DNA of 64,000 nucleotides from Zoroaster sp. YZ-2022. Its lineage: Eukaryota > Echinodermata > Asteroidea > Forcipulatida > Zoroasteridae. The DNA lies in contig CM055816.1 in the NCBI GenBank assembly GCA_029582265.1, forward strand, positions 98,921,039 through 98,985,038, given 5' to 3'. Made by a program: the position numbers and the translations under genes. This document shows positions 19,879-59,867 of this stretch, in pieces; within the stretch, counting starts at the first letter, position 1; the number at the start of each line of letters is the position of its first letter. The notes under the pieces were generated by a model. That model was not told the DNA's origin, made no database searches, and saw only the letters and a list, made by a program, of their open reading frames with translations.

Positions 19879-20378
19879 NNNNNNNNNNNNNNNNNNNNNN
19901 NNNNNNNNNNNNNNNNNNNNNNNNNNNNNNNNNNNNNNNNNNNNNNNNNNNNNNNNNNNNNNNNNNNNNNNNNNNNNNNNNNNNNNNNNNNNNNNNNNNN
20001 NNNNNNNNNNNNNNNNNNNNNNNNNNNNNNNNNNNNNNNNNNNNNNNNNNNNNNNNNNNNNNNNNNNNNNNNNNNNNNNNNNNNNNNNNNNNNNNNNNNN
20101 NNNNNNNNNNNNNNNNNNNNNNNNNNNNNNNNNNNNNNNNNNNNNNNNNNNNNNNNNNNNNNNNNNNNNNNNNNNNNNNNNNNNNNNNNNNNNNNNNNNN
20201 NNNNNNNNNNNNNNNNNNNNNNNNNNNNNNNNNNNNNNNNNNNNNNNNNNNNNNNNNNNNNNNNNNNNNNNNNNNNNNNNNNNNNNNNNNNNNNNNNNNN
20301 NNNNNNNNNNNNNNNNNNNNNNNNNNNNNNNNNNNNNNNNNNNNNNNNNNNNNNNNNNNNNNNNNNNNNNNNNNNNNN
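19879..20378. other. assembly gap, 500 N
   Basis: Exactly 500 unknown bases. The left side is not Ngaro sequence, while the right side starts inside gag of the second Ngaro copy. The gap therefore hides either a truncation point or the whole 3' half of that copy. Confidence 1.
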
Positions 20379-23457: not shown

Positions 23458-25125
23458 AATATGTTATCTCTCATCGTCGTCCATGTCTGATCGTGAAGGG
23501 ACGCGTTGTGGTAACTATTTAAACCCACGCGCGCGTGCCTTTTGTAACCGCACTGCCAAAAGAGGGCGCTGTTGACATAGTGATTACCACCAAGATGGCC
23601 ATAGTGCCATTTGGCACTGCGGGGACCAAGGGACCTGCACTTTTGTGTGCAAAAAATACTCCATGGTATCCAACTGGAATGTAACTTTGAGCCAATTTGG
23701 CACAATGGGATTGAAAGGGTTAACGTCAGGCCCAGAAAGTGAACCCAAATTAACGCAATCCCCAGTAGGGCTAGGCCTAACGTTAACCCCGTTAGAATGA
23801 ACATCAACCTGATCAATAACGTTAGGCCTAACAAAAACAGAGTTGTCATAATTAACGTTAACGTTAGAGCAACTTGACTCACCACCCGCTGAGTCGGAGC
23901 TAACAATAGTAGGCCTAGGCCCACTAGAGCCAGCCCCAGCTGCAGGCATCCCTGGCGAAGCCATCCCACTCGCCGCCATGGTGGTTGTAACGGGGCTTGC
24001 AGCACCGACGTTAACGTTAGTTGCACTCGTCGTAGGTGCCTCCGTACGAGTTGGCGATGCAACGTTAGGCCGAGACCGTGGCCGCTTCCTCGGCGGGGGC
24101 TGAGCGCTCTCCGCAAGGCGTGCTGGCGGTCGAATCGCACGCTTCGAGCGTGGCATGATCCACACGTACAGTTAGGCTTCAGCCTATTTAAAGTTCGCGA
24201 ACGCAGACAGTGAGTCGAACAACTGATGACAATTAAAACGTCCCACGAAGAAAAGTTCCCGCCAAAGCTGAATAAACACAGTTCAACGAAAGACGACAAT
24301 AAGAAAAAGTTCCCTTGGTCCAAGTAAGCGAGCTGAAACAATGAATCGATGGGTGACGACAAAATATAAAAGTTCCCACCAAAGTGCGCCGGAAAAAGGT
24401 TCGACGGGTGACGACGCTAATAAAATAGCCTCCTCCAAAGTCAGCTGAACTGGTTCACGGAGACACGGATGACACGATAAGAAAAAATGTCCCTCCAAAC
24501 TGAAGAACGATGACGGCGACGACGATGTACCACGCTTTCTTTACACCAACCTCCAAACAGCCAAATAAGAACACTAAAATTGTGTTCGAAAGTCGACAAC
24601 GAAAATCTCCGAAGCAGTAATTAACCCCGACGATCAGGTATAGCATAAACTTCCTTCTGAAAAGTGTTATCAACAAAGGTGATCAATTTGCCAGAGCAAA
24701 TTGTTGAAAAGTGTTATCAAATAAAAGCTGTGACAAAGTGACGCTTAACCAAAAGTCTTCCCGCCAACACAAAGTTACCGATCCCCAGAAGTTCACTGTA
24801 AACCAATCAGAAACAACCTGCCTGCCAGCCCTGCGCTGATTGGTTGCCGACCCACACAGTGGATCCCAAACCCCAGTATAAAAGGCTTGACAAGCACAAC
24901 AAAACCCATAACACAAAAGCACACACTACTGCCAACAACGAGCGTGAACAGAGCTCCAGCTTGTATGCATCGCATGAAACATATGCCCACACTGTACGCG
25001 TGTATAACACACGTAGGCAAATACACAAGCTGTACATGGCAGCAACAAGAATGCACTGCACCATCAAAATTGCAATGGAGTGCTAAGTATAAAGCATTTT
25101 GATCATTATTTGATCAAATGAAATA

Positions 25126-40040: not shown

Positions 40041-40175
40041 GTAAGGTGTACAATCTCATCAGGATTACATGTATTTGATCTGAAACTTTATATGGACATC
40101 ATCCATTCTTTGGTTTCTACTGACAAACCATGGGTGTGGGGGGGGGGGGGGCAAAGGGGAAGGCAAGTCCCCTTT

Positions 40176-40470
40176 AGTAGTATGTCAGATGCCGTAACTG
40201 ACTCACCTACCCCAAAAAATCGTTTTTTTAACAAATTCGCTGGGTAGTAGTAGGGAATTATCAAAAGTTAAAAAAACGATTTTTATAAAAAATCATTGAA
40301 AAAAAACGATTTTTATAAAAATCGCTGGGTAGTAGGGCGTTTTTGTTAAAAAACCGCGCCGCGTCTTTAAAGGCAAACTTAAGACTTCACGTTTTTTTAT
40401 AACGTACGAGCGCTCCATCTCATTTACTATTCGCTGAAAAGTAAATGACATTAGCTCATACGAAAATGTT
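40176..40470 (+). repeat. left terminal inverted repeat of the palindrome
   Basis: It matches 58350-58644 inverted. It contains two TGGGTAGTAG(TAG)GG motifs and runs of CGATTTTTATAAAAA, then GCGCCGCG and a CGTTTTTTTATAACGT block. It lies in the intron of the signal-peptide gene. Confidence 0.8.
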
Positions 40471-40489
40471 TAAGACTTTAAAAAGTGAG

Positions 40490-40625
40490 ATATTGATTTA
40501 ACATTTTAAGACTTTGATATTGATTTAACTTTTTAGGACTTAAAAAAGTGGGATATTGATTTAACATTTTGATACTTTAAAAAGTGATATATTGATTTAA
40601 TATTATCTAGATTTATAGTGAAGAA
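40490..40625 (+). repeat. subterminal GATATTGATTTAA iterons, left arm
   Basis: Four units of about 30-35 bp repeat AGTG(A/G)GATATTGATTTAA with AAGACTTT spacers and end in TATTATCTAGATTTATAGT. Inverted single-unit copies lie at 44895-44950 and, in the right half, at 49620-49675. The full array is mirrored at 58200-58340. Confidence 0.75.
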
Positions 40626-41039
40626 AGCATGGAATCAAGAAGATATTTATCAAAATGGACATTACCAGAATTGAAAACATTTACGCGAGAACACGAGTCA
40701 ATCGTGTTAGGCGAGGGTAAAATAAACAAACGTAGTTATTACAAGCCGTGAAAATTATATAAAAAGGCATAAACAAAAGCCACTGTATAAATTAAATTAA
40801 ACGAATTGAGAGGCGTATAACGAATGAACATATTGAGCTGCCTCAACGCGGCACGGGTAAATATGGTGGTTGTTGAGGCAAGACTACATCAACGCTATTA
40901 AAAGGTTTTACGGGCAAGAAACCGAGTTGAGATTTAATTACCGATCGACGGTGGAACTTATTTGCGCGAACGAAGAATGGTGGTTCCGCTGAATCACAGC
41001 AAAGAAAAAGATTTAAACATATTTTGGGAGGCGGTAAAA

Positions 41040-44000
41040 CCAAAGATTATCACTGTTGAATATAGATTCTGAAAGATTTTAAATCATTCAAGTTTATGAT
41101 TTACATACGCATTAAATTACTTAAAGAAAACTAAACGGTTCGATCGATGAAGCTGAACCAAATTTTCATAATAATAAGCAAATTGTTTTATTGAATTTAT
41201 ACAATATCGAAAATGTATTAGATGACGTTTTTCACAAATTCAAGAGGCTTTGAAAAATATACGCGAGAAGGTAGGATGGCATGATCGCATCGTTGAAATG
41301 AACGTTAGAATTAGCAAGTATCGACCTTGAGAGGCGGTAGTTATATAGAGCCATGCGATTATATAAGAAATAAAAAGCGTGCATCAACGTAAAAAAGAAA
41401 GACGACGATTGTTTGCGGTGGGCGATTCGTTGTTATAATAAACATAACGAAAAAAGCGATAGAAGAAAATGTCTCGATTGAAAAAGTAAATATAAAAAAT
41501 TCGGATAGACCCTCTGTTTATTCGACAAAAGACGGTTTAAATTTTAACAATATCGACGCTTCAACACCCATCAATCAAATTAAGCTCGTGGAGAAACAAA
41601 ATGATTTAGCGATAAACGTTTATGGTTGAAGGAAAATCGATACTAGCTTACGAGCTCAGCTTACAACCCGCGAAACTAAAACGTATAAATTTATTATTGT
41701 TTCATAAAGAAGAAGAAAATGGTGTTAGATCTCACTATGTTTGGATTAAAGACGTGAATAAATTACTTTTTGACCAAACGAAACACGAACATCATCAGCA
41801 TTTTGTTTGAGATGTTTACAAGGTTTTTTCAGCAAAAGCGTTTCTCGAAAATCACGTAAAATGTGTAAGGAATTAACGACAGACCGACAAAACCGTTTTA
41901 CCAATAAAGGGTAAAAACGACAAGTTAAAATTTTAAAATTTTCATAAAAAGATGAAAGCTCCATTCGTAATATACGCAGATTTTGAAAGCATTATTAAAA
42001 AGGTTGACGATGAAAGTTTCACTAATACGCACAAACTACAAGAACACGTCGTTTCAGGTTATTCATACGTAGTCGTGCGATGCGACGGGTCGACTCACAC
42101 CCCCGTTACGTATAGGGGAGAAGATGCGGCTAAACACTTTTTAACTGAATTAGAAAAAGAATCAAAACAAATTAACGAGATATTTAAAAATCCTCTTAAA
42201 ATAATAATGACCGAAGAAAATGTAAAAGATTATGACTTTGCGAGCGAGTGTTGGATATGCGAAAAGTTTTTAGCGAACGATAACGACAAGGTTAGAGATC
42301 ATTGTCACGTTACCGGTAAGTATAGAGGCGCGGCGCACAACTGTTGTAATTTAAAACTGAGTTTAAAACCTAATAAAACTTTTATTCCATTCGTGTTTCA
42401 TAACTTGAGAGGTTACGACTCTCATCTCATTATGCAAGCCGCGGGTTGCAGCGAGAGAAATATAACGTGTATAGCAAACAATATCGAAAAGTACATTTTT
42501 AATATCGGTCAATTACGATTTATCGACAGCGCTCAATTTTTACCGGCGTCGTTGGATAAGCTCGTGAAATCAAACAATTCTTTCCCAATCACAATCAAAC
42601 TCGAAACCAGATTTAGAAAAATTTAATCTATTAAAAGAAAGGGTATTTATCCTTACGAGTACATGGACTCTTTGAACGTTTTGAAGAAAAGAACTTCAAC
42701 GCAATAATTTTTATAGTAGTTCAAACGATAGTCGCATTACTGAAGAACAATACGAGCACGCAAAGAACGTTTACAACAAGTTTGATTGTAAACTTGGGTG
42801 AGTACCACGATTTATACGTGCGTACGGATACTTGCTTATTGGCGGATGTATTTGAAAACTTTCGCGTTACTTGTATACGAGAGTACGGTTTGGACCCGGC
42901 TAATTATTACACGAGTCCCGGGCTAAGTTGGGACGCTTTATTAAAACATTCGAAACAAACTTTAGATGTGTTTACAGATATTGACATGCATTTATTTATG
43001 GAGAGGGCATTAGAGGAGGAACGCATGGTGAGTAAACGATACGCGAAAGCGAATAATGTATATTTGCCTGATTACGACGAATCGAAACCGTCGAGTTACA
43101 TCATGTATTTGGACGCGAACAATTTATACGGATACGCGATGAGTCAACCTTACCTACGGGTAATTTTAATTGGTTGAGCGAAAACGAATAAAACGACTCG
43201 AGAGCGAGGGATTTAAAACAATAAAGGATACATTTTAGAAGTTGATTTAGAATATCCAACTAGTTTACACGACTCTCACAACTCGTTTCCACTCGCGCCA
43301 GAGTCGTTAAAAGTGCCGAAAGAATGGATGAGCGACTATCAAAAAGGGTTGCTAAAAGACAAACCGGCCCCAAACGTTGTAAAATTAGTTCCAAATTTAT
43401 ACGAAAAAAAAAACTACGTGATTCATTATCGTAACTTAGAATTGTATTTGCAACTCGGTATGAAACTAACTAAAATTCATAAAGTTTTAGAATTTGACGA
43501 ATCGTGTTGGATGAAATCGTACATTGATTTAAACACACAGCTCAGAAAAGAAGCAAAGAGTGATTTTGAAAAAGATTTGTTTAAACTTATGCACAATTCA
43601 GTTTTTGGCAAAACGATGGAAAATGTACGTAATCGTATTAACGTGAATATAAAGAGGCTAAATGACAAAAAGCAGAAAATCAAATTCGTTCGCTCATCGC
43701 GAAACCAAATTTTGCCGAGGCTAGGATTTTTGATAATGAATTAGTGGCGATTCACATGCATAAAAAGCAACTCGTTCTCAATAAACCAGTTTACGTAGGA
43801 ATGAGCATTCTGGATTTATCTAAACATTTAATGTACGATTTCTATTACAACCATTTAAAGCTAAAATATGGTAGCGAGTGCGAGTTGGCTTACACGGATA
43901 CGGATAGCTTGTTACTCGAGATTAAAACTCGTGACGTTTATAAAGATTTATATAAAAACAAACAATCGTACGACTTTTTCAAATTATAAACAAAATCATT

Positions 44001-44345
44001 TTTACATTCTGAAGCTAATAAAAAGTAATCCATGGGAGTACCTATAGCGGAAATTGTGGGTCTAAGACCAAAAATGTATTCGATACTTTTATCAAAATGA
44101 AGCTGAAATAAGAAAAGCTAAAGGTGTTAAAAACTAGTTTTAGAACGATATTAAACACGCTAGATATAAACAAGTTTTATCTCAAAATATTACGCTGCAT
44201 CACCCTATGAGTTTTATCAGGCACGAACAACATAGATTATATACAACGCGAGTAAATAAAATATCGCTATCTCCTTTAGACACAAAGAGACACATTTTAG
44301 AAAATGGAATAGATACTTGCGCCTACGGTCACTACAGCCTTAATG
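41040..44345 (+). pseudogene. Polinton-like family-B DNA polymerase, left arm, frameshifted
   Basis: Successive frames carry polymerase motifs in order. These are YADFES (exo I, about 41975), an endonuclease-VII-like zinc insert with Cys-x2-Cys and HCHVTGKYRGAAHNCC (about 42246-42350), and HNLRGYDSH (exo II, about 42400). TDTCLLADVFENF (exo III, about 42825) follows, then YLDANNLYGYAM (pol A, about 43107), NSVFGKTMEN (pol B, about 43598) and YTDTDSLLLE (pol C, about 43895). The C-terminus continues through IVGLRPKMYS to about 44345. An upstream part with HYVWIKDVN (41735) belongs to the same protein. At least six frame changes separate the pieces. Protein-primed polymerases of this type copy linear DNA with inverted ends. 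Confidence 0.85.
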
Positions 44346-44895
44346 TTTAATCGGCGTATCGTTAAAAACAATTTGCTTACAAATTACGAGCGTGAAGCTG
44401 ACGACGCAGGAGCAAACATAGTTTCAGTTTCACCAGGTGCTGGATGCTTACAGTTGGTAACGCAAAACTCAGAGCAAACAGGCTCTTACAAGAAAGCGTT
44501 GATTTTGTTTTAGCATCCTTTCAGCGTTGGTTTAGTGATTTTATAAAAAACTTGATGCTATCATTTACATCTTGTACATAATGGAGGTATCGTCTTTGGT
44601 GCCCATGTTACATTTTTTACACGCGAGAGGAATAGATTTTCCAACCTTTATACGACTCCGATGCAACCACAAAATGTTTCCCCACACACGCTAGATTTTG
44701 AACACGCGTTAGTTGAACCCACTAAAAGCCATTCACACGGAATGATCTTTTGGTTGGTAAAGCATTTAAATGTTTTTAATACTCAACAAGTAATCTTTTA
44801 TTCACCTTTGCTAGATGAGATCTCCATCGTTATGTTATCAGTTAACGTACTTTTCAGTTGCGCGACGGTCTTTATCCAACAATTTATCTTAGCCA
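44345..44895 (-). pseudogene. unidentified convergent frame remnant, left arm
   Basis: The region between the polymerase end and the inner inverted repeat matches 49680-50268 inverted. There a 94-residue frame (49874-50158, plus strand) is open, with a FVWLHRSRIKVGKS block. In the left arm the equivalent minus-strand frame is broken. I recognise no family; position next to the polymerase suggests a former element gene. Confidence 0.3.
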
Positions 44896-44950
44896 TCTTT
44901 ACTATAAATCTAGATAATATTAAATCAATATCTCACTTTTTTAAGTCAGA
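44895..44950 (-). repeat. inner inverted copy of the subterminal repeat, left arm
   Basis: About 48 bp (ACTATAAATCTAGATAATAT followed by TAAATCAATATCTCACTTTT) are the inverse of 40577-40625. The 4.8-kb polymerase unit is thus bracketed by its own inverted repeats. Confidence 0.75.
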
Positions 44951-45019
44951 TATTGCTTTCATCGAATGTAAGTAAACGGTAAAAAAAAGTGTCTTTTAGA
45001 GAATAAATGAAACAAAGTC

Positions 45020-45280
45020 ACGCTCCACACCGTGCTTTATTCAAATAAAGGTGTAATAAAAAGTCATCAAAAGTAACTTTAAAAAACGTTTTACTCGAGA
45101 GAAAAAACGTTGTATCAATGATATGAAATATATTAGAAATGATAAACATAATTTATACACTATAAACGTTTATAACAGATCGTTGGATCCGAAAGACGAC
45201 AAGAGACATATTTTACGAAACGAACAGACACTCGCGCATGGGTATTATAGCATCGCTCGGCGCAGTTGAACTAATGCTAG
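45020..45280 (+). pseudogene. C-terminal fragment of a second family-B DNA polymerase
   Basis: Broken frames read SLDPKDDKRHILRN and LAHGYYSI. They closely resemble the LSPLDTKRHILEN...AYGHYSL end of the adjacent polymerase but are clearly a different sequence. A KGV-type block occurs just upstream, as it does in the first copy. Only the last 70-80 residues are present. It is mirrored at 49260-49520. Confidence 0.6.
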
Positions 45281-45284
45281 TGTG

Positions 45285-46370
45285 TTTGTATGAAAGCTTG
45301 TTTGCGACTGATGCTCAATGTGTTTGCGACTGATGCTCAATGTGTTTGCGACTGATGCTCAATGTGTTTGTGACTAATGCTCAATGTGTGTTTGCGACTG
45401 ATGCTCAAATGTGTTTTGACTGATGCTCAATGTGTTTACGAAAGCGTGTTTGCGACTGATGCTCAATGTGCTTTACGAAAGCGTGTTTGCGACTGATGCT
45501 CAATGTGTGTTTGTGACTAATGCTAAATGTGTGTTTGCGACTGATGCTCAACGTGTGTTTACGAAAGCGTGTTTGCGACTGATGCTCAATGTGTTTGTGA
45601 CTAATGCTAAATGTGTTTAGGACTAATGCTCAATGTGTGTTTGTGATCACTAATGCTCAATGTGTTTGCAACTAATGCTCAATGTGTGTTTGCGACTAAT
45701 GCCAAATGTGTGTTTACATGAAAGTGTTTGCGACTGATGCTCAATGTGTGTTTACGAAAGCGTGTTTGCGACTGATGCTCAATGTGTGTTTGTGACTAAT
45801 GCTAAATGTGTTTGCGACTAATGCTAAATGTGTGTTTACGAAAGCGTGTTGCGACCGATGCTCAATGTTTGACGAAAGCGTGTTTGTGACTAATGCTAAT
45901 GTGTTTGCGAAAGCTTGTTTGCGACTAATGCTAAATGTGTGTTTACGACTAATGCTCAATGTGTGTTTACGAAAGCTAGCGTGTTTACAACTAATGCTCA
46001 ATGTGTGTTTACGAAAGCTAGCGTGTTTGCGACTAATGCTCAATGTGTGTTTACGACTAATGCTCAATGTTTGTACGAAAGCGTGTTTGCGACTAATGCT
46101 CAATGTGTGTTTACGAAAGTTTGTTTGCGACTGATGCCTCAATGTGTTTGTGATCAATGCTAAATGTGTTTGCGACTAATGCTAAATTGTGTTTACGAAA
46201 GCGTGTTTGACTGATGCTCAATGTTTGTACGAAAGCGTGTTTGTGACTAATGCTAAATGTGTTTGCGAAAGCTTGTTTGCGACTAATGCTAAATGTGTGT
46301 TTACGACTAATGCTCAATGTGCGTTTACGAAAGCGTGTTTGTGACTAATGCTAAATGTGTACTAATGCAG
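45285..46370. repeat. 22-24-bp tandem array, left mirror
   Basis: More than thirty units of TTTGCGACTGATGCTCAATGTG, alternating with a TTTACGAAAGCG unit, show many single-base changes. The inverse array (CATTGAGCATCAGTCGCAAA) lies at 47870-49260. Long translations here are artefacts of a repeat length divisible by three in places. Confidence 0.85.
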
Positions 46371-46574
46371 AATAGCTTTGATACCTTTTAGCTTCACTAA
46401 AGGCGTATAAACCAACGAGTCTAACGATTTTTTCTTGAAGGTCATTACCTAATGGGTGAGGCTAAGATAATTTTAATAAAGAGTTCTGATCTTTTAGTTG
46501 ATTTTGTTTGAATCTTTAGGTTTTGTAATCATTCGTTGTGTTACCCTTAGCGTTGCTACTACAACTTACGGGGA

Positions 46575-47440
46575 GTTTAATCGAAGGTTAAACCTTTCAA
46601 TTACTCATAGGTTACTCACAGGTCGTTAGCAATTACCTGGTTACCCACAGGTCATTAAGCAATTACCCATAGGTCGTTAGCAGTTACCCTTAGGTTACCA
46701 TAGGTTACCTACAGGTTACCCACAGGTCATTATAAGCACCCACCATAGGTCGTTGCAGTTACCACAGGTTGTTAGCAATTTACCCAGGTCGTTGAGCAGT
46801 TACTCACAGGTTACCATAGGTTACCTGGGTTACCCACAGGTTATTAAGCAATTACCCACAGGTCATTAAGCAATTACCCACAGGTCGTTGAGCAATTACC
46901 CAGGTCGTTAGCAGTTACTCACAGGTTACCTTAGGTTACCCACAGGTCATTAAGCAATACCCACAGGTTGATTAGTAGTACCACAGGTTACTCATAGGTC
47001 GTTGTACAATTACCCATAGGTCGTTAGCAATAACCCATAGGTCGTTGAGCAATTACCCATAGGTCGTTAAGCAGTTACCAGGTTACTACTCCACCTGTCG
47101 TTAGCAAGTACTCATAGCAGTCGTTAGCAATTACTCCCAGGTTACTCCATAGGTCGTTAGCAATTACTCATAGGTTTACTCACACGGAACTACTCACAGT
47201 GTCATATCCATAGGTCAAGTTGAGCAATTACACCATAGGTCATGTTGAGCAATTACCCATAGGTCGCGAGCAATACCTATAGGCTGGCTACAAGCACCAT
47301 AGGTTACCTACAGGTTACTCACAGGTTGGTACCTACAGGTTACTCACAGGTTACCCATAGTTGTTACTCGCAGGTTACCTGCACAGGCGCTTACTCTGGG
47401 TTACTCACATGTTAACACTCACAGGTTACTGATTGCTTAC
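46575..47440. repeat. central 23-24-bp tandem array (CAGGTCGTTAGCAATTACC)
   Basis: Roughly thirty units of (C/A)AGGT(C/T)(G/A)TTA(A)GCAATTACCC or shorter AGGTTACC units run in one direction only. The palindrome therefore has a directional, non-palindromic centre. Flanks at 46375-46560 and 47590-47840 retain weak inverted similarity (TGAATCTTTAGGTTT against AAACCTAAAGATTCA). Confidence 0.8.
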
Positions 47441-47869
47441 CTCCTCTTACTATAGCTTAGTATAGTAATTACTCTTATTTTGATTTGTATATAATACGAA
47501 TGAATTAACAAACGAGTAGCTTGCATAGCCGCTAAAAGCATAAAACCTCACCTCAACGTGTATTTGTAGCCCAGTTAAATACTGCTACAAAAGGCCCAGT
47601 ACAGTGTGAATGATTGCAAACCTAAAGATTCAAGCAAAAATCCCCTCACCAGTTAGCCTTTTGGGTGGGTTGAAGCGTTAGCGTTAATGATACCTCTAAA
47701 GAATACCGTCAAGTGCTCGTAAGTAGGTGTAATGGTTTTGGTGTCGCCTTGCGAAGTTGAAAGAAACGATTTGTAGCACCATTTGTATCATTTAAAAATC
47801 TGGTTCAACCCATAGTGATGTAGCTACTCACTACATTGAGTTATTGAAGTTGCAAAACACATTATAGCA

Positions 47870-49260
47870 CGGTCACAAACACACATTTACGAGCATCAGT
47901 CGCAAACACAGCTGTAAACACACATTAGAAGTATTGCATTAGTCGCGCAAACACACATTGAGCATTAGTTGCAAAACACATTGAGCATTAGTCTGCGCTT
48001 TCGTAAAACACACATTGAGTATTAGTCGCAAGCACAATATTTAGCATTAGGTATCGCAAGCGACAATGCAAACACATTTAGCATTAGTCACAAACACGCT
48101 TTCGTACAAACATTACATCAGTCGCATAAAAACGCTTTCGTAAACTGTAACATATTTACATTAGTCGCAAACACATTTAGCGTATTAGTCACAAAACACA
48201 CATTGGAGCATCAGTCGCAAAACACGCTTTCGTAATAATAATAATAATAATGTATAGATTTATATAGCGCAATGTGTCCACCAATCTGCGTGGCGCTCAA
48301 GGCGCATTATATTATTATCCCCCTCACAAGGGGCTCATGGGCGCATAAATCATTCCTGAAACCATCTCTAGCTCCTCAGAGGGAGTATACGAGCTCAATC
48401 AAGCTGCCACTTTCAGCGCATAGAGAGCAAACCATCTTCTGCCTTCACAGGTACCATTTAACCCCTGGGTGGAGAGAAGCAATTATGGCGTGCTGGCGGT
48501 GTCTTGCCTGGCGACATTACAGTGTCAGCGGCTGGGAAGGCCTCGAACCCACACTCCAGCTGCTGGCAACACACCAGAACTTGGAGTTCAGTGCGCGCTA
48601 GAATCCGCCGGCTACATGACAAATCCACTACATACCCATGTGCATTATACAACACACGGGACCTACGGCTTTACAGTCCTGAATCCGGAAGGACGAAGCA
48701 ATTATGGTTAAGTACCTTGCTCAAGGATACAAGTGTGTCACGACCGGGCTCGAACCCACACCCTTAAGCGTTGGCAACACCAGAACTTGAGTTCGGTGCG
48801 CTAGGACCGCTCGGCCATTACTACACTCCACAATATTGAGCATTAAGTTAAAACACGGCTCGTAAACACACACATTTAAAGTTAATAGTCGCAACACACA
48901 TTGAGTATTAGTTGTACCAACACATTGATATTAGTTTCACAAACACGGAGAGCATTAGTCCTAAACACACATTTACATTAGGTCACAAATACATATTGAG
49001 CATTAGTCCTAAACACATATTTAGCATAGTCACAAACACACATTGACCATCAGTCGCAAAACACGCTTGTCAAAACTTACACATTGAGCATCAGTCGCAA
49101 ACACACATTGAGCATCAGTCGCAAACACACATTGAGCATTAGTCACAAACACATTGAAGAATCAGTCGCAACACACATTGAGCATCAGTCGTAAAACACA
49201 TTGGAGTATCGTCGTAAACACATTGGAGCATCAGTCGCACCGACAAGTTTCATAAGCCAA
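47870..49260. repeat. 22-24-bp tandem array, right mirror, with SINE insertion
   Basis: Inverse units of the 45285-46370 array run 47870-48231 and 48829-49260. A tRNA-derived SINE sits between them. The shared motif is GAGCAT(C/T)AGTCGCAAACACA. Confidence 0.8.
48232..48828 (-). mobile_element. tRNA-derived SINE with internal 219-bp insertion
   Basis: Read on the minus strand it starts with a tRNA-like head: box A TGGCCGAGCGG and box B GGGTTCGAGCCC (at about 48815 and 48750). TATCCTTGAGCAAGG follows, then a body ending in GCGCTATATAAA and an (ATT)n tail at 48232-48250. The body matches the SINE at 59508. A 219-bp piece (48489-48707) is inserted and bounded by AGCAATTATGG repeats (48478-48488 and 48697-48707). 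It carries a second, degenerate tRNA-like head. Confidence 0.75.
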
Positions 49261-49520
49261 ACACTACGGCATTAGGTTCAACTGCGCCGAGCGCGATGCC
49301 ATACCATGCGCGAGAGTGTTCTGTTTCGTTTCGCAAAATATGTCTCTTAATGTCGTCTTTTCGATCCGATCCACGATTTTTTTTATAAACGTTTATAGTG
49401 TATAAATTATGTCGATTATCGCCTCTTCTAATACTATTTCATATCGTGAGTTACAAATTTTTTTTCTCGAGTAAAAAACGTTTTGAAGTTGTTAACTTTT
49501 GATGACTTGTTTTATTACAC
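49260..49520 (-). pseudogene. second polymerase C-terminal fragment, right mirror
   Basis: It is the inverse of 45020-45280 with scattered indels, and the same DPKDDK-type coding block is only partly readable. It lies at the same place relative to the right tandem array. Confidence 0.5.
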
Positions 49521-49619
49521 CTTATTTGAATAAAGCACGGTGTGAGCGTGACTTTGTTTCATTTATTCTCTAAAAGACACTTTTTTACCGTTTACTTACA
49601 TTCGATGAAAGCAAATATT

Positions 49620-49675
49620 CTGACGGTGAGATATTGATTTAATAATATTATCTAGATTTATAGTAAAAGATGGAA
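49620..49675 (+). repeat. inner subterminal repeat, right arm
   Basis: GGTGAGATATTGATTTAATA and ATATTATCTAGATTTATAGT mirror 44895-44950 and mark the inner end of the right polymerase unit. Confidence 0.7.
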
Positions 49676-49873
49676 AGATAAATTGTTGGATAAAGACCTG
49701 TCGCGCAAACTTTGAAAAGAGTAATGGTTAATGATAATAACATAACGATGGAGATCTCTATCTAGCAAGGTGAATAAAAAGAATACTTATGACGGGTAAA
49801 AGTATTTAAATGCTTTACTCAAATCCAAAAGATCATTCCGTGTGAATGGTATTTTAGTGGGTTCAACTAACGC

Positions 49874-50158
49874 GTGTTCAAAATCTCAGCGTGTGTGGGG
49901 AAACATTTTGTGTGGTTGCATCGGAGTCGTATAAAGGTTGGAAAATCCTATTCTTCTCGCGTGTATAAAATGCAATATGGGCACCAAGACGATACCTCCA
50001 TTATGGCGTACAAGATGGTAAATGATAGCATCGTTTTTTATAAAAATCTAAAACCAACGCGCCAGAAAGCGATGCTAAAACAAAATCAACGCCTTGTAGA
50101 GCCTGGTTGCTCTGAGTTTTGCGTTACCAACTGTATCCAGCGCAATTCCGGTAGTTGA
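49874..50158 (+). CDS. 94-residue hypothetical frame, right arm
   Basis: This is the best-preserved version of the frame convergent to the polymerase. It has FVWLHRSRIKVGKS, a DDTSIMAYKM block and a basic NLKPTRQKAMLKQNQR stretch, and ends in a Cys-rich GCSEFCVTNC. I do not recognise the family. Conservation between arms is partly just DNA identity, so coding is uncertain; it may be the tail of a longer element gene. Confidence 0.3.
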   Translation: MFKISACVGKHFVWLHRSRIKVGKSYSSRVYKMQYGHQDDTSIMAYKMVNDSIVFYKNLKPTRQKAMLKQNQRLVEPGCSEFCVTNCIQRNSGS

Positions 50159-50268
50159 AACTATGCTTTACCCTGCGTCGTCGGCTTCACCCTCGTAGTT
50201 TGTACAACTTTTTGGTTACCACCGTAAGCATCCGGCGCAATTACCATACGCCGTTTAAACATTAAGGC

Positions 50269-53200
50269 ACCCGCGTTTTTTCAGCTCAGCCTTTTAAAAA
50301 AATAATGTGTGGCCATTTTATTTACGTCAATAATCTTTGAGTATAATATAACATTTAGGTGTAAGGAAGGATGATAATGGCACCTTAGCCCTCAATATGA
50401 GATTAAAGACTATAATATAATGGTAATCTTTGGTTACTACCCCCCAAAATAAAGATGAGTCTAAGATCATAATTTTACTTTCAGCGATTTTTTGTTTCAT
50501 TGGCGATTTTGTACACATAAAGAGTTTGATAACCCTCATACCATCATCTGTGGAGAACTGGAATTTAGTTCTAAAACGATAAAATAGATTGCCACAATTA
50601 CGTCAATATTAATAATCCTCTTCTACAAAATAGGGTGTTAACTCTGTGTAGTGATCTTTGATCTTATTGACCCATGGCGTATTCATAATCCAGATGGTCG
50701 CAGGTATACGGAGGCAATACGCTACTTCTCAGCAATCTCAGGACTGGATTTTGTTTTAAATTTCTTCGAACTAAATTTCTAAATTTGTTTTTGCATGCTG
50801 ACATAAAGCCGGGATATCGTACTGACCATTCTTCGGTAGATAATTAAGTTTGATTTAAACTAAAATGGATATAGGGGGTAGGGTATTGGAAATTTAATAA
50901 TTCCTTCTATGCTTACTGGACAAAGTGTTTGTTTGACCAGGGTTAAAATATTATTGAGGAAACTCAGTGAAAACATATGCGGCCTCCTCCTTTTATTTAT
51001 CTTCCAGTCTGAAGGAGATACATGGGGATATCCAGTTTACAATTAACGACCGCTTTTTTTTTAGATGCTTTTAATGGAGGATTAGGTCTAAAACTATTTC
51101 CTATTCAGTTCAATGGAAAAGAAATATGCCCCAGTAAAGGTTTGGGAGTCGGTCTTGAAAATGAGATTGCGATTTAACTGATAAGGTATCTCAGGGAGAC
51201 TGCACCTTAGTGGACGATTTGCAATCTCCAAGCAGGCGGAGTTGGTAGATATCCGCAAAAATAAAATGGATGGTGTTTTAATAAGATCTAAAACTCGTTG
51301 GATTGAGAGCATGGCGAAAACCTTCCAAGTATTTTTTTGAATATGGAGGAAGCGTAATTGTGTTAACAAGACCAAGACCGTTGAAGGGTTGTGTTATTAA
51401 AGATGATAGTAACTGAATTGGAAGTCATCTAAGGATATTCTCCTTGAGGCTAGACATTTTTATAAAAAATTATAACTCCGTGTCCTGACACTAATAACCA
51501 ATATTGATTTGCAGTCTATTTTTAGAGAATTCAGACTCTCCAGTTTTATCTTAACACAACACGTGTATAACACCTGGAAGGTCCCGTGTTGCATCAGGAA
51601 TTTTAAAATGTTTTGAAGAAGACTAAAAAACGGGAAGTCTCCAGGGTCCTGACGGTTTCAGTTTTGAATTTTATAAATTGTTTTTCACTGATCTATCATG
51701 GTATTTTATTGCGTTCCTTAAATGCTGCCCAGTGAAACGGGGACACTTTCAGTTACTCAACAATATGGAATTATCACATTATTGCCTTCAAAGGATGTAA
51801 ACCACGTCAATTTTAAAAAACTGGCGGCCTATTTCGTTACTGAATACCTCTTTATAAATTGGCTTCTGCTTGTATTGCAGAGGAGACTTAAAACTTGTCT
51901 CTCATCTATTATGTCAGGCAGCAGAAAGGGATTTTTAAGCGGACGCTATATTGGGGAAAAAATATCCGGTTATCGTATGATTTAATTAAATTTTACGGGA
52001 AACTAAAAAACATTCCCGGTGTTTTTGTTAGCATTGATTTTGAGAAAGCCTTTGATTCTGTCTCCATAAATTTATTATGAATATTCTTTGATAAGTTTAA
52101 TTTTGGTCCCTTCAATCTCAAAATGGTTTCCTGACTTCTTTATAGTGGGGCTAAAACTTCCGTCGTTTTGATTAATGGATTTCTCGTCAGGAGTCGTTCC
52201 AAAATTGATGTGGGCTGTAGACACACACGGCTCTCGAGCCCGTATTGTGTCTTTGTGTGGCTAGAGGAGATTCTGGGCGCAAGATGGTTTTCGTAATGAC
52301 AGAATTTTGAAAGGGATCATATAGTTGAGGATGTGGAATATAGGCTTTCTCAATATGCAGACGACACCGTGTATTTTTAAATGGTTCAGAAATTTTCATT
52401 GGGACGAGTTTTCTTGGTTACTTGATGATGATTTAAGTTAAAATGTCCGGCTTAAAAGTCAATGTAGATAAAAATAAAATGTGCGTCTGGATTGTGGTAA
52501 TAGAAGGACCATCAAAAACTTGGCTATTAGTTAACTATTAATATTAACTGGATTGGTGTCCAAGATACGTTTAGAGCACCTTGGTATTGATTTTCCAATT
52601 AATCTTAATACCATGGTGAGGAGTTAACTTCATGATATAGGTTATTGTACAGTTAAATGTTTAATTGAACAATGGTCCTAAAAGAAAACTTCCACCTGTT
52701 CTTTTTGGAAGGTATATAATAGTTAAATCATTTACCATCCAAACTTACATTTCTTGCCTTTTGGACACTCCCTCAGACCCGGCTTGGCTATATGATTAAA
52801 GTGCTATTAGATCAAGTATGTTTGGACAAATTCATTTGGAAAATAAGGTGTCGATAGAATCATTCCCAGGAATCAGATGATTCAAGACTATAGTCAAGGG
52901 AGGTTTGAAAATGGTCGATAAGTGCGTTCTCTGCATTAATGCACTTAAAATTACTTGGATTCGTAGATATTAAATGTTGTTGACCTGGTGTGGGTCAACC
53001 TTTTTCCAAGATTACAAACAATTCAAAACTCCTTGTTCTGAGGAGGACATGCCACCATTGTCCAACCATTAAAAACGGCCCAATGCCCCAATTACTTTTG
53101 GATTGATGTTCTCAATGCCTGCCCTCCTTTGTGTCAATCCACGAACCAGACACATTGAACGACGTTTTAACGATTTTGTGGTATAATCATACTAGAGTTA

Positions 53201-54229
53201 CAAGAAAACAGTATTATAAATATAAACACTGGGCAACAACAAAGGTGTAAATTTTGTGTGCGATCTTCTTGATGAAAAGGGGGACTTTTTAACGTTGGAA
53301 AATTTTATGGTTCGATCTAACACAGAATCGAATTTTTTGAGTAATAGGGGGGCATGGTTAAAGCGGTTAAACATTATTTTCGTAATTGCTTTACTGGAAT
53401 AAAATGTAACATTGTTTTTTTTTTTTATCCTTTTAACCTGGAGTTGCTTTTCAGGATATAAAAAGGCTCGATACGTATTTACAATATTTTTACCGTGCAA
53501 ATAAAACGGTCTCAGTTTAAATTTATCAGTAAGTGGGATACAAAGTTGAATGCTTGACATTCCCATAACAAAATGGTTGGTCTTTTGTCGTCTTCCTTTG
53601 GTGTACTTTAGATACTAAATTACGTTGGTTTCAATATATAGGCCTGGGTCCATAGGGAACCTGGGAGTTAATTCTTTCTGGCTAAAAATTAAGGATCAAG
53701 AATAGTGATTTGTGTATTTTGCCAAGTCGAAAGTGAGATTCCCCTACCATCTGTTCCCAGCATACATATAAGATTACCCGTTCCTTTTGGGATCGAGTTA
53801 ATATATGGGTGACAGAGACAGTGAACATTAATGTCAATTTCGGACAATATGTGTATTCTCTCTTGGGGTGCTGAATTAGAGTTCGAGTGCCCGTAATTTG
53901 ATTAACTTTCTTATGTGTCGAGCCATATCTATAAAAATGAAAGATGAATGAGAAGTAAACCATCCTTTGAGCAGATAAAGAAGGATGATTAAACGATATT
54001 AAGTGTATTGGAGAAATTCATTTTCATGACAATGCGGTAATAGTGTTAAATTTTAATCAAAAATGGGATTAAGATTAAGGTTCGCTTGTAGAAGAGTAGC
54101 TCTTTATTTTTTTGATATGTATGTATTTATATTTTTATGTACCTGAACGATTGTGAAAATTGAGATAGAATAAATATTTTTCCTCCGAAAAAAAACAACA
54201 CATTACAAAAAAAAAAAAAAAAAAAAAAA
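50269..54229 (+). mobile_element. L1/Tx1-like LINE, degraded, inserted in the right arm
   Basis: AAGGC is duplicated at 50264-50268 and 54230-54234, and the left arm keeps the uninterrupted site near 44338. The 3' end has an A-tract (54207-54229). Frames carry an endonuclease C-terminal part (LIDPWRIHNPDGRRYT, KPGYRTDHS, about 50660-50840). RT blocks follow: GIITLLPSKD (51750), SGRYIGEKI (51937), VSIDFEKAFDSVS (52025) and YADDTVYF (52352). Many frameshifts and stops are present. It is 5' truncated. Confidence 0.8.
50640..52400 (+). pseudogene. LINE endonuclease-reverse transcriptase, decayed
   Basis: This is the coding part of the LINE just described. AP-type endonuclease remnants precede RT fingers and palm. 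The palm motif FEKAFDS supplies the first catalytic Asp region and YADD the second. No continuous frame longer than about 90 codons survives. Confidence 0.75.
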
Positions 54230-57200
54230 AAGGCTGTAGTGACCGTAAGCGCAAGTATCTATTCCATTTTCTAAAATGTGTCTTCTTGCAACTGTCTAAA
54301 GGATATAGCGATATTTTATTACTGCGCGTTGTATATAATCTATGTTTTTCGTGCCTGATAAAACTCATGGGGTGATGCAGCGTAATATTTTGAGATAAAA
54401 TTGTTTTATATCTAGCGTGTTTAATATCCCTGTTCTAAAACTTGTTTTTAACACCTTTAGCTTTCTTCTTATTCTTTCAGCTTCATTTGATAAAGAAGTA
54501 ATCGAATTACATTTTGGTCTTAGACACCACAATTTCCGCTCCATACAGGTACTCCCAAGTGGGTTTCGTCTTTCATTTTACCAATTACTTTTTTATTAGC
54601 TTCCAGAATGTAAAAATGATCTTGTTTATAATTTGAAAAAGTCGTACGAGTGTTTGTTTTATATAAATCTTTACATATAAACGTCTCGAGTTTTAATCTT
54701 CGAAAGTAACAAGCTATCAACACTCCGTGCAGCTAAGCAAATCGTCACTCGTTGCCGTAACTCTTTGTTTAAAATGATTTGTAATAAAAAATCGTACATT
54801 AAATGTTTAGATACATCCAGTATGCTCATTCCGGCCGTAAACCGGGCGGTTGAGAGCGAGTTAAGTTTATGTACGTGAATTCAAGTTACCTAAATCATTA
54901 TCGAAAATCCTAGCCTCCGGCAAATTTGGTTTCGCATGATGAGCGCCACAACTTGATTGTCCGCTTTTTTGCCGCATTCATAGCCTCTTTTATATTCACG
55001 TTAATACGATTAATATGTCCATTTTCCATCGTTTGCCAAAAACTACGAATTGTTCATAAGTTTAAACAAAATCTTTTTCAAAATCACTTTGCTTCTTTTT
55101 CTGAGCTGTGTGTTTAAATCAATGTAATGTCACTCTTTCATCCAAACACGATTCGTCAAATTCTAAAACTTTATGAATTTTAGATAGTTTCACATACTGA
55201 GTTGCAAATACAATTCTAAGTTACGATAATGAATCACGTAGTTTTTTTTTTATGGTATAAATTTGGAACTAATTTTACAAACGTTTGGGGCCGGTTTGTC
55301 TTTTAGCAAACCCTTTTTGAGTACTCGCTCATCCATATTCGCCAGCACTAATTTAACGACTCTGGCGCAGAGGTGAAACGCGTTGTGAGAGTCGTAAACT
55401 AGTTAAAAGGTATTATATAAATCTGACTTCAAATGTATCCTTTATTGTTTTTTAAATCCCTCGCCTCGGAGTCGTTTTATTCTGTTTTTCGCTCAACCAC
55501 TTAAAATTACCCGTAAGTAAAGGTTGACTCATCGCGTATCCGCATAAAATTGTTCGCGTGTTCCTCAAATACACATGATGTAATCTCGACGGTTTCTGAT
55601 CTCGTCGTAATCGGGTAAATATACATTATTCGCTTTCGCGCATCGTTTACTCACCATGCACGTTCCTCCTCTAATGCCCCTCTCCATAAATAATGCATGG
55701 CATGTCAATATCTGTAAACACATCTAAAAGTTTGTTTTCGAATGTTTTAACAAAGCGTCCCAACTTCTTAGCTCCCTGACTCGTGTAATAATTAGCTGGG
55801 TCCAAACCGTACTCCTCGTATACAAGTACGCGAAAGTTTTCAAACACATCCGCCAATAAGTATCCGTACGCACGTATAACCGTGGTAATCACCCAAGCGC
55901 TTTTTACAATCAAACTTGTTGTTAAACGTTCTTTGCGTGCCTTTTCCGTATTGTTCTTTCAGTAATGCGACTATCGTTTAGACTACTATAACAAAATTCT
56001 TAAAAGTTGGTGTTCTTTTCTCTCAAAACGTTCAAAAGAGCCCATGTTCTGCTAAGGATAAACATTCCCTTTCTTTTAATAAGATTACATTTTTTCTAAA
56101 TCTGGTTCGAGTTTGATTGTGATTGGGGAAAGAATTGTTTTGATTTTCACGAGCTTTATCCAACGACGCCGGTAAAAATTGAGCGCTGTCGATAAATCGT
56201 AATTGGACCGATATTAAAAGAAATGTTTTCGATATTGTTTACTATACAACGTTATATTTCTTCTCGCTGCAACCCGCGGCATATTAGTTGGTATAATGAG
56301 GATGAGAGTCGTAACCTCCTCAAGTTACAGGAACACGACTGAATAAAAAGAAGTTTTATTAGGTTTTAAACCTCAGTTTAACCATAACAGTTGTGTGGTT
56401 GCGCCTATACTTTACCGGTAACGTGACAATGATCTCTAACCTTGTCGTTATCGTTTGCCAAAACTTCTTCTTTCGCATATCCAACACTCGCTCGCAAAGT
56501 GTAATCTTTTACATTTCTCTCAGTGGGTCATTATTTTAAGAGGATTTTTTAAACATACTCGTTAATTTGTTTTGGATTCTTTCTTTCCAATTCAGTTAAA
56601 AAGTGGTTTAGCCGCATCTTCTCCCTATACGTAACGGTGTGTGAGTCGACCCGTCGCATCGCACGACTACGGATATTAATAACCGCAAACGACGGTTCTG
56701 TAGTTCTTGTGTAGTTTTGCGCATTAGCAGAGCTATCGTCAACCTTAATAATGCTTTAATGCTTAAAATCGGCGTATATTACGAATGGAACTCTTCATCT
56801 TTTTTTGAAAATTTATACCCTTAACTTGTCGTTTTACCCTTTATTGGTAAAACGGTTTTTGTCGGTCTGTCGTTAATTCCTTGCCAATATTTTTACGTGA
56901 TTTCGAGAAACGCTTCTGCTGAAAAACCTTGTAAACATCCTCAAACAAAAAATGCTTGATTGATGTTCAATGTTTGTGTTCATTTGTTTGGTCAAAAAAG
57001 CAATTTATTCATGTCTTTATCCAAAACATAGTGAGATCTAACACCATTTTCTTCTTTCTTTATGGAAACAATAATAATTTATAATGTTTTAGTTTCTTGC
57101 GGGTTTGAAGCTGAGCTCGTAAACTAGTATCGATTTTCCTTTCACAACCGAAAACGTGTAATCGCTATATTGTTTTGTTTTACTCCATGATGCTTAATTT

Positions 57201-57720
57201 CTGATTGATGGGTGAGAGGAGCGTTGATATACTACTAAATTTAAACCGTCTCCTTTTTGAATATGCAGAGGTCCGAATTTTTTATATTACTTTTTTCAAT
57301 CGGAAAGATTCTCTAGGGGTTCGTTTTCATTATGTTTACAACGGATTCCCACCAATCGCAAACAATCGTCGTCTTTATTTTACGTTGATGCATCGCTTTT
57401 TTATTTCTTATATAATCGCATAGCTCTCATATAACTACCGCGCTCTCAAAGGTCGATACTACAATTCTAACGTTCATTTCAACGAAATGCGACTCTATTA
57501 CCCATCCTACTACCTTCTCGCGTATATTTTTCTAAAGCCTCTTCTGAATTTCCCAGTGAAAAAACGTCATCTAATACATTTTCGATATTGTATAAATTCA
57601 ATAAAACAATTTGTTTATTATTATGAAAATTTGTTCAGCTTCATCGATCGGAACCTGTTTAGTTTTTCTTCTTTTAAGTAATTTAATGCGTATGGGGAAT
57701 CATAAACCTTAGTACCGGAT
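54230..57720 (-). pseudogene. Polinton-like DNA polymerase, right arm, heavily frameshifted
   Basis: It is the inverse of the left-arm gene with dense single-base indels. The longest readable frame (55671-55913) carries LLADVFENFR and EYGLDPANYY (exo III region). Polymerase blocks are readable only in scraps elsewhere. The C-terminus abuts the LINE. It is more broken than the left copy. Confidence 0.8.
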
Positions 57721-58199
57721 TTAAAATCTTTCGGGTCATATTCAACTTGGTGATAATCTTTGGTTTACCTCGCCGCTCCCAAAATATGTTTAAATATTTT
57801 TCTTCTTGTTGTGATCTCGGCGAACCACCATTCTTCGTTCGCGCAAATAAGTTCCACCGTCGATCGGTAAATTAAAATCTCAACTCGGTTTCTGCCCGTA
57901 AAACCTTTTAATAGCGTTGATGAAGTCTTGCCTCAACAACCCACCATACTTTTACCGCGCCGCGTTGAGGCAGCCTGCTATGTTCATTCGTTATACGCTC
58001 TTCTCAATTCGTTTAAATTTAATTTATACAGGTGGCTTTTGTTTATGCCTTTATATATATAATTTTCACGGCTTCGCATCATAACTACGTTTGTTTATTA
58101 TTTAATTCGCCCTAACACGATTGACTCGTGTTCCTCGCGTAAATGTTTCTTCAATTCTGGTAATGTCCATTTTGGATAAATATCTTCTGATTCCATGCT

Positions 58200-58340
58200 T
58201 TCTTTACTATAAATCTAGATAATATTAAATCAATATACACTTTTAAAGTATCAACATGTTAAATCAATATCCCACTTTTTTAAGTCCTAAAAGTTAAATC
58301 AATATCAAAGTCTCACTTTTAAAGTCTTAAACATTTTTCG
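58200..58340 (-). repeat. subterminal iterons, right arm
   Basis: These are inverse copies of the GATATTGATTTAA array at 40490-40625, in the same order, ending in ACTATAAATCTAGATAATAT. Confidence 0.75.
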
Positions 58341-58349
58341 TATGAGGCC

Positions 58350-58644
58350 AATGTCATTTACTTTTCAAAGTAATAGTATGAGATGGAGCGCCCGTAACGT
58401 TATAAAAAAACGTGAAGTCTTAAGTTTGCCTTTAAAGTTATCGCGGCGCGGTTTTTTAACAAAAACGCCCCACTACTACCTGCCGAGCGATTTTTATAAA
58501 AACTGTTTTTTTAAATGATTTTTTTATAAAAATCAAGATTTTTAAACTTTTGATAATTCCCCTACTACTACCCAGCGAATTTGTAAAAAACGATGTTTTT
58601 TGGTACGTAGGTGAGTCAGTTAACGGCATCTGACGCATACTACT
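58350..58644 (-). repeat. right terminal inverted repeat of the palindrome
   Basis: The inverse of 40176-40470, with several 1-2 base indels. It keeps CCTACTACTACCCAGCGAAT and the end CATACTACT. Confidence 0.8.
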
Positions 58645-59507: not shown

Positions 59508-59867
59508 GTGTCGTGGCCGAGCGGTCTAGCTTACCGGACTCAAGTTCTGGTGTTAGCAGCAGAATGTGGGTTCGAATCCCGGCCGTGACACTTGTGTCCT
59601 TGAGCAAGACACTTAACCATAATTGCTTCTCTCCACCCAGGGGTTAAATGGTGTACCTGTGAGGGCAGAGTTGGTTGATTAGCCCTATATGCGCTGTAAT
59701 GGCAGCAATTGAGCTGTATACTCCCCCAGGAGCTGAGATGGTTTCAGGAATGATTTATGAGCCTTATTTATCAGCAGGGGTAATGATATAATGCGCCTTG
59801 AGCACCACTTAGTTGGTGGATACGTGCGCTATATAAGTCCACACATTATTATTATTACATTATTATC
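59508..59867 (+). mobile_element. tRNA-derived SINE
   Basis: The head looks like a leucine/serine-type tRNA, with box A TGGCCGAGCGG (59513-59523) and box B GGGTTCGAATCCC (59569-59581). A conserved CTTGAGCAAGACACTTAACC block and a body shared with 48232-48828 follow. It ends GCGCTATATAAGTCC and an (ATT)n tail. Pol III could transcribe it from the internal boxes. It is not a functional tRNA gene: the arms past the head do not close properly and the body follows directly. Confidence 0.85.

Follow-up and report, generated by a model that had tools for sequence, protein, structure and literature searches.

The locus raises the question of what kind of DNA forms an 18.5-kb palindrome at positions 40176-58644 of the window, that is, of the whole 64,000-nucleotide stretch analysed from Zoroaster sp. 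YZ-2022. The results showed that this region is a mirror-image mobile element, built from the DNA-polymerase end of a Polinton, which is present twice in opposite orientations. The left arm (40176..46360, + strand) comprises the terminal AGTAGTATG, a gene for family B DNA polymerase (PolB), a small cysteine-rich gene convergent to it, and a tandem array, array A. The right arm (47848..58644, − strand) is its inverted and noisy counterpart, carries two insertions, and terminates with CATACTACT (58636..58644, − strand), the inverse of the left end. The outer ends AGTAGTATG are exact at left and right and are of the Maverick type AGTAGT...ACTACT. In blastn comparisons, the inverted arms were 85.3% identical over 4,518 columns (40176-44341 against 58644-54230) and 82.8% identical over 1,364 columns (44378-45641 against 50204-48893), which confirmed the claim of an earlier note that the outer ends and the arms recur as inverted copies.

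Comparison of the two window arms counted 278 indel events and 162 substitutions over 4,022 sites. Indel noise accounts for most of their divergence of about 15% (85% identity): a cleaner, collinear copy, of which the window locus is a noisy duplicate, lies 84 kb away (C1:98877201-98895209), and its arms are 1.09% apart. The left flank of the window palindrome is CCTTT (40171..40175, unstranded), and in the cleaner copy this 5-bp sequence is exactly repeated at both borders as a target duplication. The right arm additionally contains an unstranded 0.65-kb repeat (48236..48886) that is inserted in its array A and is related to positions 59541-59865, together with a 4.0-kb LINE with an A25 tail (50205..54229, + strand) that is absent from the left arm, and the arms are therefore unequal in length. 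In the cleaner copy, the LINE has clear endonuclease and reverse transcriptase domains (RVT_1, E=1.1e-36) and is flanked by the target duplication GGCTGTAGTG. The size of 18.5 kb given earlier is inflated by the LINE, which makes up 4.0 kb of it.

As expected from the earlier note, PolB matches were found in each arm, with both gene copies broken by frameshifts. The left PolB gene, with frameshifts and stops, occupies 40557..44347 (+ strand); PolB-family matches span 41330-44347, and the N-terminal part was placed because its DNA matches the beginning of PolB in palindrome C13. The right copy (54230..57039, − strand) is heavily frame-shifted, mostly by extra bases. An endonuclease-VII-like insert, reported before for both arms, was recovered within the left PolB (42243..42356, + strand; PF02945, E=7.5e-6), and the broken right arm shows a fragment of it. 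This insert is an ordinary feature of such polymerases: it was also seen in other relatives, and an account of moth Mavericks notes it in their PolBs (PMC5803895). The convergent frame does recur inverted and encodes a small cysteine-rich, zinc-ribbon-like protein in both arms (core at 44580..44678, − strand, convergent to the left PolB; right-arm frame at 49871..50155, + strand, convergent to the right PolB), the zinc-ribbon label coming from a weak Pfam match to DZR (E=0.048, below its cut-off). The frame was also considered as an integrase and rejected, as it had no match with four integrase relatives. The inverted tandem arrays and the one-directional centre were both present as described: array A, with units of about 22 bp, lies at 45270..46360 (+ strand) in the left arm and at 47848..48235 and 48886-49239 (− strand) in the right arm, and the central array B lies at 46610..47380 (+ strand). 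In two full Polintons, the unit of array B also follows the ATPase gene.

The PolB of palindrome C8 was 39% identical to three relatives over 1,119-1,133 columns, and one of these relatives comes from a contig that also encodes an integrase and an A32-type ATPase. The ExoI, A, B and C polymerase motifs stand in an open PolB frame. A Pfam search at E 0.1 gave no polymerase domain in the frame of 1,307 codons, and a sequence search of PolB against solved structures returned nothing beyond one chance match (E 0.71). By sequence kinship, the palindrome PolB belongs to the Polinton family. The dN/dS of PolB was 0.09-0.22 in 27 of the 28 comparisons between palindromic loci and 0.32 in the remaining one, indicating purifying selection. 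The kinship of PolB and the trinucleotide repeated at the termini suggest that the palindromes may replicate by protein priming.

The palindromic layout was identified at no fewer than 16 independent loci in the 1.0-Gb genome, including six read with two long arms (C8, C13, C1a, C11, C1b and C7b), two with one reduced arm (C4 and C7a), and eight further loci known from paired inverted match coordinates only. The arms are 4.8-7.3 kb long. Among the matches listed, counting each arm once (40 of 61 rows in the first genome search and 40 of 48 in the second), the arm pairs within 20 kb were head-out inverted in 7/7 and 8/8 cases, and head-in or direct pairs numbered 0. At C10, three arm pairs share a common midpoint, and a different query gave the same midpoint. 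The centres of C8, C13, C1a and C1b match one another, so that the search for further loci with the same centre, proposed earlier as a check, found homologous centres elsewhere, and a junction artefact at the centre of the window palindrome is contradicted. Array A is common to C1a, C1b, C4, C7a and C7b; it was not found in the palindromes C8, C13 and C11, nor in the elements C10s, C13s and C1s, nor beyond PolB at 18 integrase-bearing loci. These results established that the palindrome is an element type and not a single accident.

Analysis of the element ends revealed an exact 5-bp target duplication flanking the whole palindrome at C8, C13 and C1b, i.e., at three of the four palindromes with both ends read, and therefore insertion happened as a palindrome. 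The earlier suggestion that the palindrome is itself the unit of a separate element type is accordingly upheld by the recurrence elsewhere, the homologous centres where compared and these duplications. Exact 5-bp duplications were also present at the non-palindromic C13s and C1s, giving 5/6 elements tested; C1a, of which both ends were read, had none. Inverted ends with the (AGT)2//(ACT)2 motif were present, one end of C8 being AGTGGT, and the element end of C7b was not found in the pieces read. In vertebrates, (AGT)2//(ACT)2 is given as the commonest Maverick end motif (PMC8097293), and target duplications of 5-6 bp are known from polinton-like viruses (PMC12220804).

Full Polintons with the same ends, C13s and C10s, were found in the same genome, and the Polinton kinship proposed earlier is confirmed by these full-length relatives. 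Integrase was present in C13s, C10s, C1s and 18/20 other loci; no integrase match was obtained in C8, C13, C1a, C1b, C4, C7a, C7b or the window, and C11 retains a 22-residue C-terminal integrase remnant. The ATPase (PF04665, 9.5e-12 in C13s) and the C13s capsid-region ORFs had no match in C8, C13, C1a, C1b, C4, C11, C7a, C7b or the window; these ORFs are named by position only, with no capsid match in Pfam and L001. With regard to a self-complementary genome derived from a single parental end, as in snapback forms, the element end, PolB and the integrase remnant fit one Polinton end, but the small cysteine-rich protein has its homologue close to the opposite end of the full Polintons. At other loci, 34 of 42 matches to the C1b PolB were 83-88% identical, about as close as that of palindrome C13 (86%), and at least three of those 34 matches lie in integrase-bearing copies. 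Three integrase-bearing copies split from the palindromes in one of two PolB blocks only, with support below the starred level. Since PolB elsewhere is similarly close and the split appears in one block, a single origin of the palindromes is not proven.

Within one copy, the arms differed by 0.20-1.53% in two PolB blocks, against 6.4-21.7% between different loci, and the arms of the same locus were sisters at 5/5 loci (ultrafast bootstrap 100). Most likely, the palindromes represent a capsid-less, integrase-less Polinton lineage with a palindromic genome and its own PolB, integrated in trans. It is probable, though well short of certain, that this Polinton/Maverick derivative is copied as a linear palindrome by a predicted protein-primed polymerase of its own, and that full Polintons supply the integrase for its insertion. 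Such a lineage could have begun with a shortened Polinton that retained its ends, PolB and the small gene and was fused tail to tail. The tail-to-tail dimer or replication product put forward earlier remains a fair account of the origin, because such a fusion would yield the observed arm order of end, PolB and convergent small gene. During replication, a displaced single strand would fold into a hairpin whose stem consists of the two arms, and the stem end would recreate the double-stranded start site for protein-primed initiation, from which PolB could copy through the loop, i.e., the centre. Mismatches between the arms would be repaired in the stem, leaving the arms nearly identical at each new insertion, and the integrase of full Polintons would insert the palindrome in trans. 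More tentatively, we propose a transposon lineage whose genome is a palindrome: a self-complementary linear DNA with its own polymerase, its arms copied anew or repaired from one another at each cycle, that is parasitic on full Polintons for integration. No transposable element with such a strategy of mutually backed-up palindromic arms was found in literature searches.

Alternatively, single-arm or full Polintons might have been turned palindromic where they lay, by chromosomal inverted duplication or by gap repair in which one end is copied over the other, with gene conversion in the chromosome keeping the arms alike. Two loci fit a chromosomal inverted duplication better: the arms of C1a carry on for 450 bp into inverted flanking sequence outside the element and lack a target duplication, and inverted flanking sequence of about 1 kb was also present at C4. 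Arm differences were clustered at 4/5 loci, as is also expected from gene conversion or local errors, and a comparable process has been proposed for the growth of the long inverted repeats of Galileo, one being copied over the other during repair (PMC3573991). Nevertheless, this origin is rather unlikely for the palindromes in general, because the target duplications around entire palindromes (C8, C13 and C1b), the homologous centres, and the array A shared by five palindromes and not found in C10s, C13s, C1s or beyond PolB at 18 integrase-bearing loci would all need repeating. The indel-rich arm differences in the window resemble raw long-read error, the window copy nearly duplicates another locus in noisy form, and C7b is gap-rich too, as would be expected if an inverted chimeric or unsplit long read had produced a false palindrome. 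We regard such an assembly artefact as highly improbable in view of the 5-bp target duplications at palindrome ends and of the LINE, which lies in a single arm and has a target duplication of its own; as an explanation of the palindrome type, an unsplit read is contradicted by the cleaner-armed palindromes of the same element on several chromosomes.

It was also considered that the palindromes are passive defective copies, namely snapback-like by-products of Polinton replication, made repeatedly and integrated by helper enzymes, which would not form a lineage. In favour of this reading, integrase, ATPase and capsid-region genes were not found in the palindromes examined, the PolBs of other copies are similarly close to C1b, and AAV is known to form snapback genomes that are self-complementary (PMC8235507). 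The homologous centres and the array A in five palindromes argue instead for common descent, and the loci are 6-22% apart with PolB under selection, a selection that could date from a full Polinton ancestor. On balance, we consider this explanation improbable.

Compared with known systems, the palindromes resemble Polinton/Maverick elements (adintovirus-like; Preplasmiviricota) in the (AGT)2//(ACT)2 motif of their ends, in a short target duplication and in the endonuclease-VII-like insert of PolB, and the genome also contains full relatives that encode integrase and A32-type ATPase. They differ in possessing two PolB genes, in the genes missing from the palindromes examined, and in a target duplication of 5 bp instead of the 6 bp of Mavericks; their arms also far exceed the inverted repeats of 46-1,447 bp reported for vertebrate Mavericks (PMC8097293). 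In the AAV snapback genomes described, one end of a linear genome is doubled in inverted orientation to give self-complementary molecules, either symmetric or with a loop (PMC8235507). Those forms are by-products in virus stocks, whereas the palindromes occur as insertions in the genome, share homologous centres across several loci and contain a polymerase gene formerly under selection. The foldback-like Galileo likewise has long, internally repetitive inverted repeats, 98-100% identical within one copy (PMC3573991); it has a P-element-type transposase, in contrast to the viral-type DNA polymerase and Maverick ends of the palindrome arms, and no such transposase was detected among the eight window frames of the element and two C8 frames scanned. 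Symmetric recombinants of adenovirus are comparable snapback-type forms. A mirrored lineage of ends, polymerase and one small gene would isolate a minimal replicon, serve as a natural record of arm-to-arm homogenisation, and show that Polintons shed satellite-like forms within animal genomes as viruses do. Palindromes of this kind may be garbled in long-read assemblies, the window being an example.

Beyond this genome, scans of viral contigs yielded one related contig, which had no inverted repeats of ≥30 bases in 13.4 kb. A scan of prokaryote contigs gave five related fragments in bins labelled bacterial; none had long inverted arms, L005 having a 76-bp inverted repeat, and they are probably contamination from eukaryotes or viruses. 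One related fragment comes from Elysia crispata.

The earlier note described an inverted palindrome in the window with a PolB gene in each arm, and self-comparison of the window bore out both points. An outer arm block at 40176-44341 pairs with 58644-54230 and an inner block at 44378-45641 with 50204-48893, both arms start with AGTAGTATG, and each arm matched the PolB of L001, a Polinton-like virus contig from IMG/VR, as well as other relatives. L001, which carries a PolB-endonuclease VII, a convergent rve integrase, an A32-type ATPase and a weak capsid match, was the sole relative found among viral contigs, and a search with its PolB gave 7,697 significant matches among 7,989 scored candidates. 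The endonuclease-VII-like insert claimed for PolB is present in the left window copy, but it is not unusual, since such an insert is also indicated in moth Maverick PolBs and diverse homing-endonuclease insertions are stated for polinton PolBs (available parts of PMC5803895 and PMC11071308, respectively).

A false palindrome was suspected at first, because the indels and frameshifts of the window arms resemble raw long-read error. The outer arms differ by 278 indel events (the right arm has 204 extra and 74 missing) versus 162 substitutions over 4,022 sites, and the inner arms, over 846 sites, by 65 versus 30. In other parts of the window, six repeat pairs sum to 36 indel events and 98 substitutions; their single ratios run from 0.11 to 2.0, and the two highest come from pairs that have 0 and 3 substitutions. 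For a seventh pair, one of whose copies lies within the right arm, the counts are 25 indel events and 28 substitutions. Compared with one relative, P0102, the left window PolB contains 16 frameshifts (14 being missing bases) and the right one 41 (31 being extra bases), and against three other relatives the counts are 15-21 and 29-37, respectively. The suspicion was dropped on the search of the genome (1.0 Gb, 616 contigs) and on a cleaner collinear copy, C1b (C1b:98877201-98895209). The window locus (37523-59428) is collinear with C1:98874500-98895976, including the flanks and a LINE; window 40149-47425 differs from the cleaner copy by 131 mismatches and 231 gap bases in 7,417 columns, and window 47426-56347 by 273 and 833 in 9,128 columns. 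Since the arms of C1b differ by just 1.09% (55 substitutions in 5,045 sites), the window copy is, judged from sequence, a noisy duplicate, which would stem either from segmental duplication with poor consensus or from false duplication in the assembly. A third copy, inverted and noisier, lies at ~98.83-98.85 Mb of C1.

The genome-wide search for the same palindrome, proposed as a check, revealed inverted arm pairs at at least 16 independent loci, with C1b and its duplicates taken as one; this number is a lower bound, because between 36 and 40 candidates out of 473 to 5,776 were scored per search. Tabulation, at one entry for each arm, took in 40 of 61 matches from the first search and 40 of 48 from the second (query: the C13 stretch from small gene to PolB start); those omitted are extra segments of the same arms, including, at C10, a second small-gene segment inside one arm, namely a direct repeat. 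Arm pairs within 20 kb were head-out inverted in 7/7 and 8/8 cases, respectively. Both long arms were read from sequence at C1b, C8 (C8:36699188-36714665, arms of 7.3 kb), C13 (C13:9058951-9071320, arms of 5.7 kb), C1a (C1a:17592546-17606120), C11 (C11:4316706-4327077, right end lost) and C7b (C7b:40324307-40337552, ends not found). At C4 (3.61 Mb) one arm is cut to about its outer 0.8 kb, and at C7a (5.55 Mb) most of PolB is gone from one arm. Paired inverted match coordinates alone define C14 (3.681 Mb), C5 (32.499 Mb), C10 (36.530 Mb), C1c (99.056 Mb), C1d (90.939 Mb), C1e (58.130 Mb) and C4b (40.677 Mb), as well as a candidate, C7c (11.7 kb in total), whose left match (C7:40164853) came from the first search and right match from the second. 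The palindrome is almost certainly a recurrent element type.

Within copies the arms are closely alike. In two PolB blocks, arms of one locus are 0.20-1.53% apart, and copies at separate loci 6.4-21.7% (86 pairs, one block) and 8.9-18.5% (73 pairs, the other); same-locus arms were sisters at 5/5 loci in both block trees, with ultrafast bootstrap of 100. Whole-arm divergence is 0.42% at C8, 0.65% at both C13 and C1a, 0.88% at C11 and 1.09% at C1b, while C7a shows 0.59% over its remaining 1.2 kb. C7b reaches 2.67% with 55 indel events, which suggests noise. At four of five loci the differences fall in clusters (variance/mean 2.1-6.2), as either tract-wise conversion or local errors would produce; at C1b they are evenly spread. 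One C1b arm holds a LINE that has a target duplication of its own.

An exact 5-bp target duplication was found in five of the six elements with both ends read, comprising the palindromes C8 (CGCCT), C13 (AGGGT) and C1b (CCTTT) and the non-palindromic relatives C13s (ATGCC) and C1s (GGTTT), and a 6-bp duplication in 0/6. At C8, C13 and C1b, the element was thus inserted as a palindrome. No target duplication was found at C1a, where the palindrome runs ~450 bp past both Maverick ends into inverted flank (17592097-17592545 and 17606121-17606564). An inverted flank of ~1 kb (94%) also surrounds the damaged C4 palindrome (3609531-3610583 and 3618406-3619405).

The palindromes read from sequence retain ends, PolB and a small cysteine-rich gene only. 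Integrase, ATPase and capsid-region genes gave no match at E 1e-4 in C8, C13, C1a, C1b, C4, the window, C7a and C7b, and the integrase trace in C11 amounts to 22 C-terminal residues. The arm order is end, small gene, PolB in C8, C13, C1a, C11, C7a and C7b, and end, PolB, convergent small gene in the window/C1b and C4. At ≤4 substitutions per unit, array A (~22-bp units) was present in C1a, C1b, C4, the window, C7a and C7b, and was not found in C8, C13 and C11 nor in C10s, C13s and C1s. The centres of C8, C13, C1a and C1b match one another, and those of C11 and C1b have 147 bp in common; a shared centre alone does not imply descent from one palindrome, because units of the central array B also occur in C10s and C13s. 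PolB is under selection in the palindromes: of 28 comparisons between loci, 27 gave a dN/dS of 0.09-0.22, and the remaining one, between the closely related C1b and C4, gave 0.32. One arm of C8 has an open PolB frame with the exonuclease and polymerase motifs, although Pfam did not recognise this frame.

Full Polintons exist in the same genome. C13s spans 16.6 kb (5837751-5854392), and its inverted ends measure ~279 bp. A PCNA-like sliding-clamp ORF lies near its left end (L034:1718-2404; PF00705, E=2.1e-10); C13s also has a small cysteine-rich ORF, a set of several ORFs at the position of capsid genes, an A32-type ATPase, array B, two small ORFs, a retroviral-type integrase and a convergent PolB. 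C10s, of which one end was found, matches C13s not just in PolB but in 15/15 further ORFs or parts of ORFs that were tried, and its match to the PCNA-like ORF is 74% identical. C1s, shortened to 6.7 kb, keeps PolB and integrase. Integrase lay within 2.5 kb beyond PolB at 18 of 20 further near loci, the other two being C7a and C7b; C1:34563220 and the left C7c match fall outside this survey.

The element ends carry a repeated trinucleotide similar to the sites at which adenovirus and phi29 initiate with sliding or jumping back, and replication would probably be protein-primed and start from these ends. The displaced strands would then fold back, with repair within the stem, and integration could be provided in trans by full Polintons, whose ends are the same. 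As a whole, this mechanism seems somewhat favoured. No palindromic Polinton appeared among the listed results of the literature searches, which covered few subscription papers and no repeat database, nor in the available parts of PMC5803895, PMC12721341, PMC11071296, PMC11071308, PMC2836005, PMC8097293 and PMC12220804; a named repeat family for this palindrome may already exist. The nearest analogues found were Galileo and AAV snapback genomes, as covered in the available parts of PMC3573991 and PMC8235507.

The window locus, a near-duplicate with indel-rich noise, may have been falsely duplicated in this chromosome-scale assembly. Elsewhere in the window lie a 500-N gap (19879-20378), a Penelope-type frame (17317-18504) with a GIY-YIG domain and a weak reverse transcriptase match, and a piggyBac-type transposase fragment (22646-23218; DDE_Tnp_1_7). 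DIRS-like retroelement frames with GDSL-lipase, phage-integrase-type and RT domains were located at 6637-11227 and 23720-25122, and the stretch 10776-12191 is repeated at 23720-25122 (98%).
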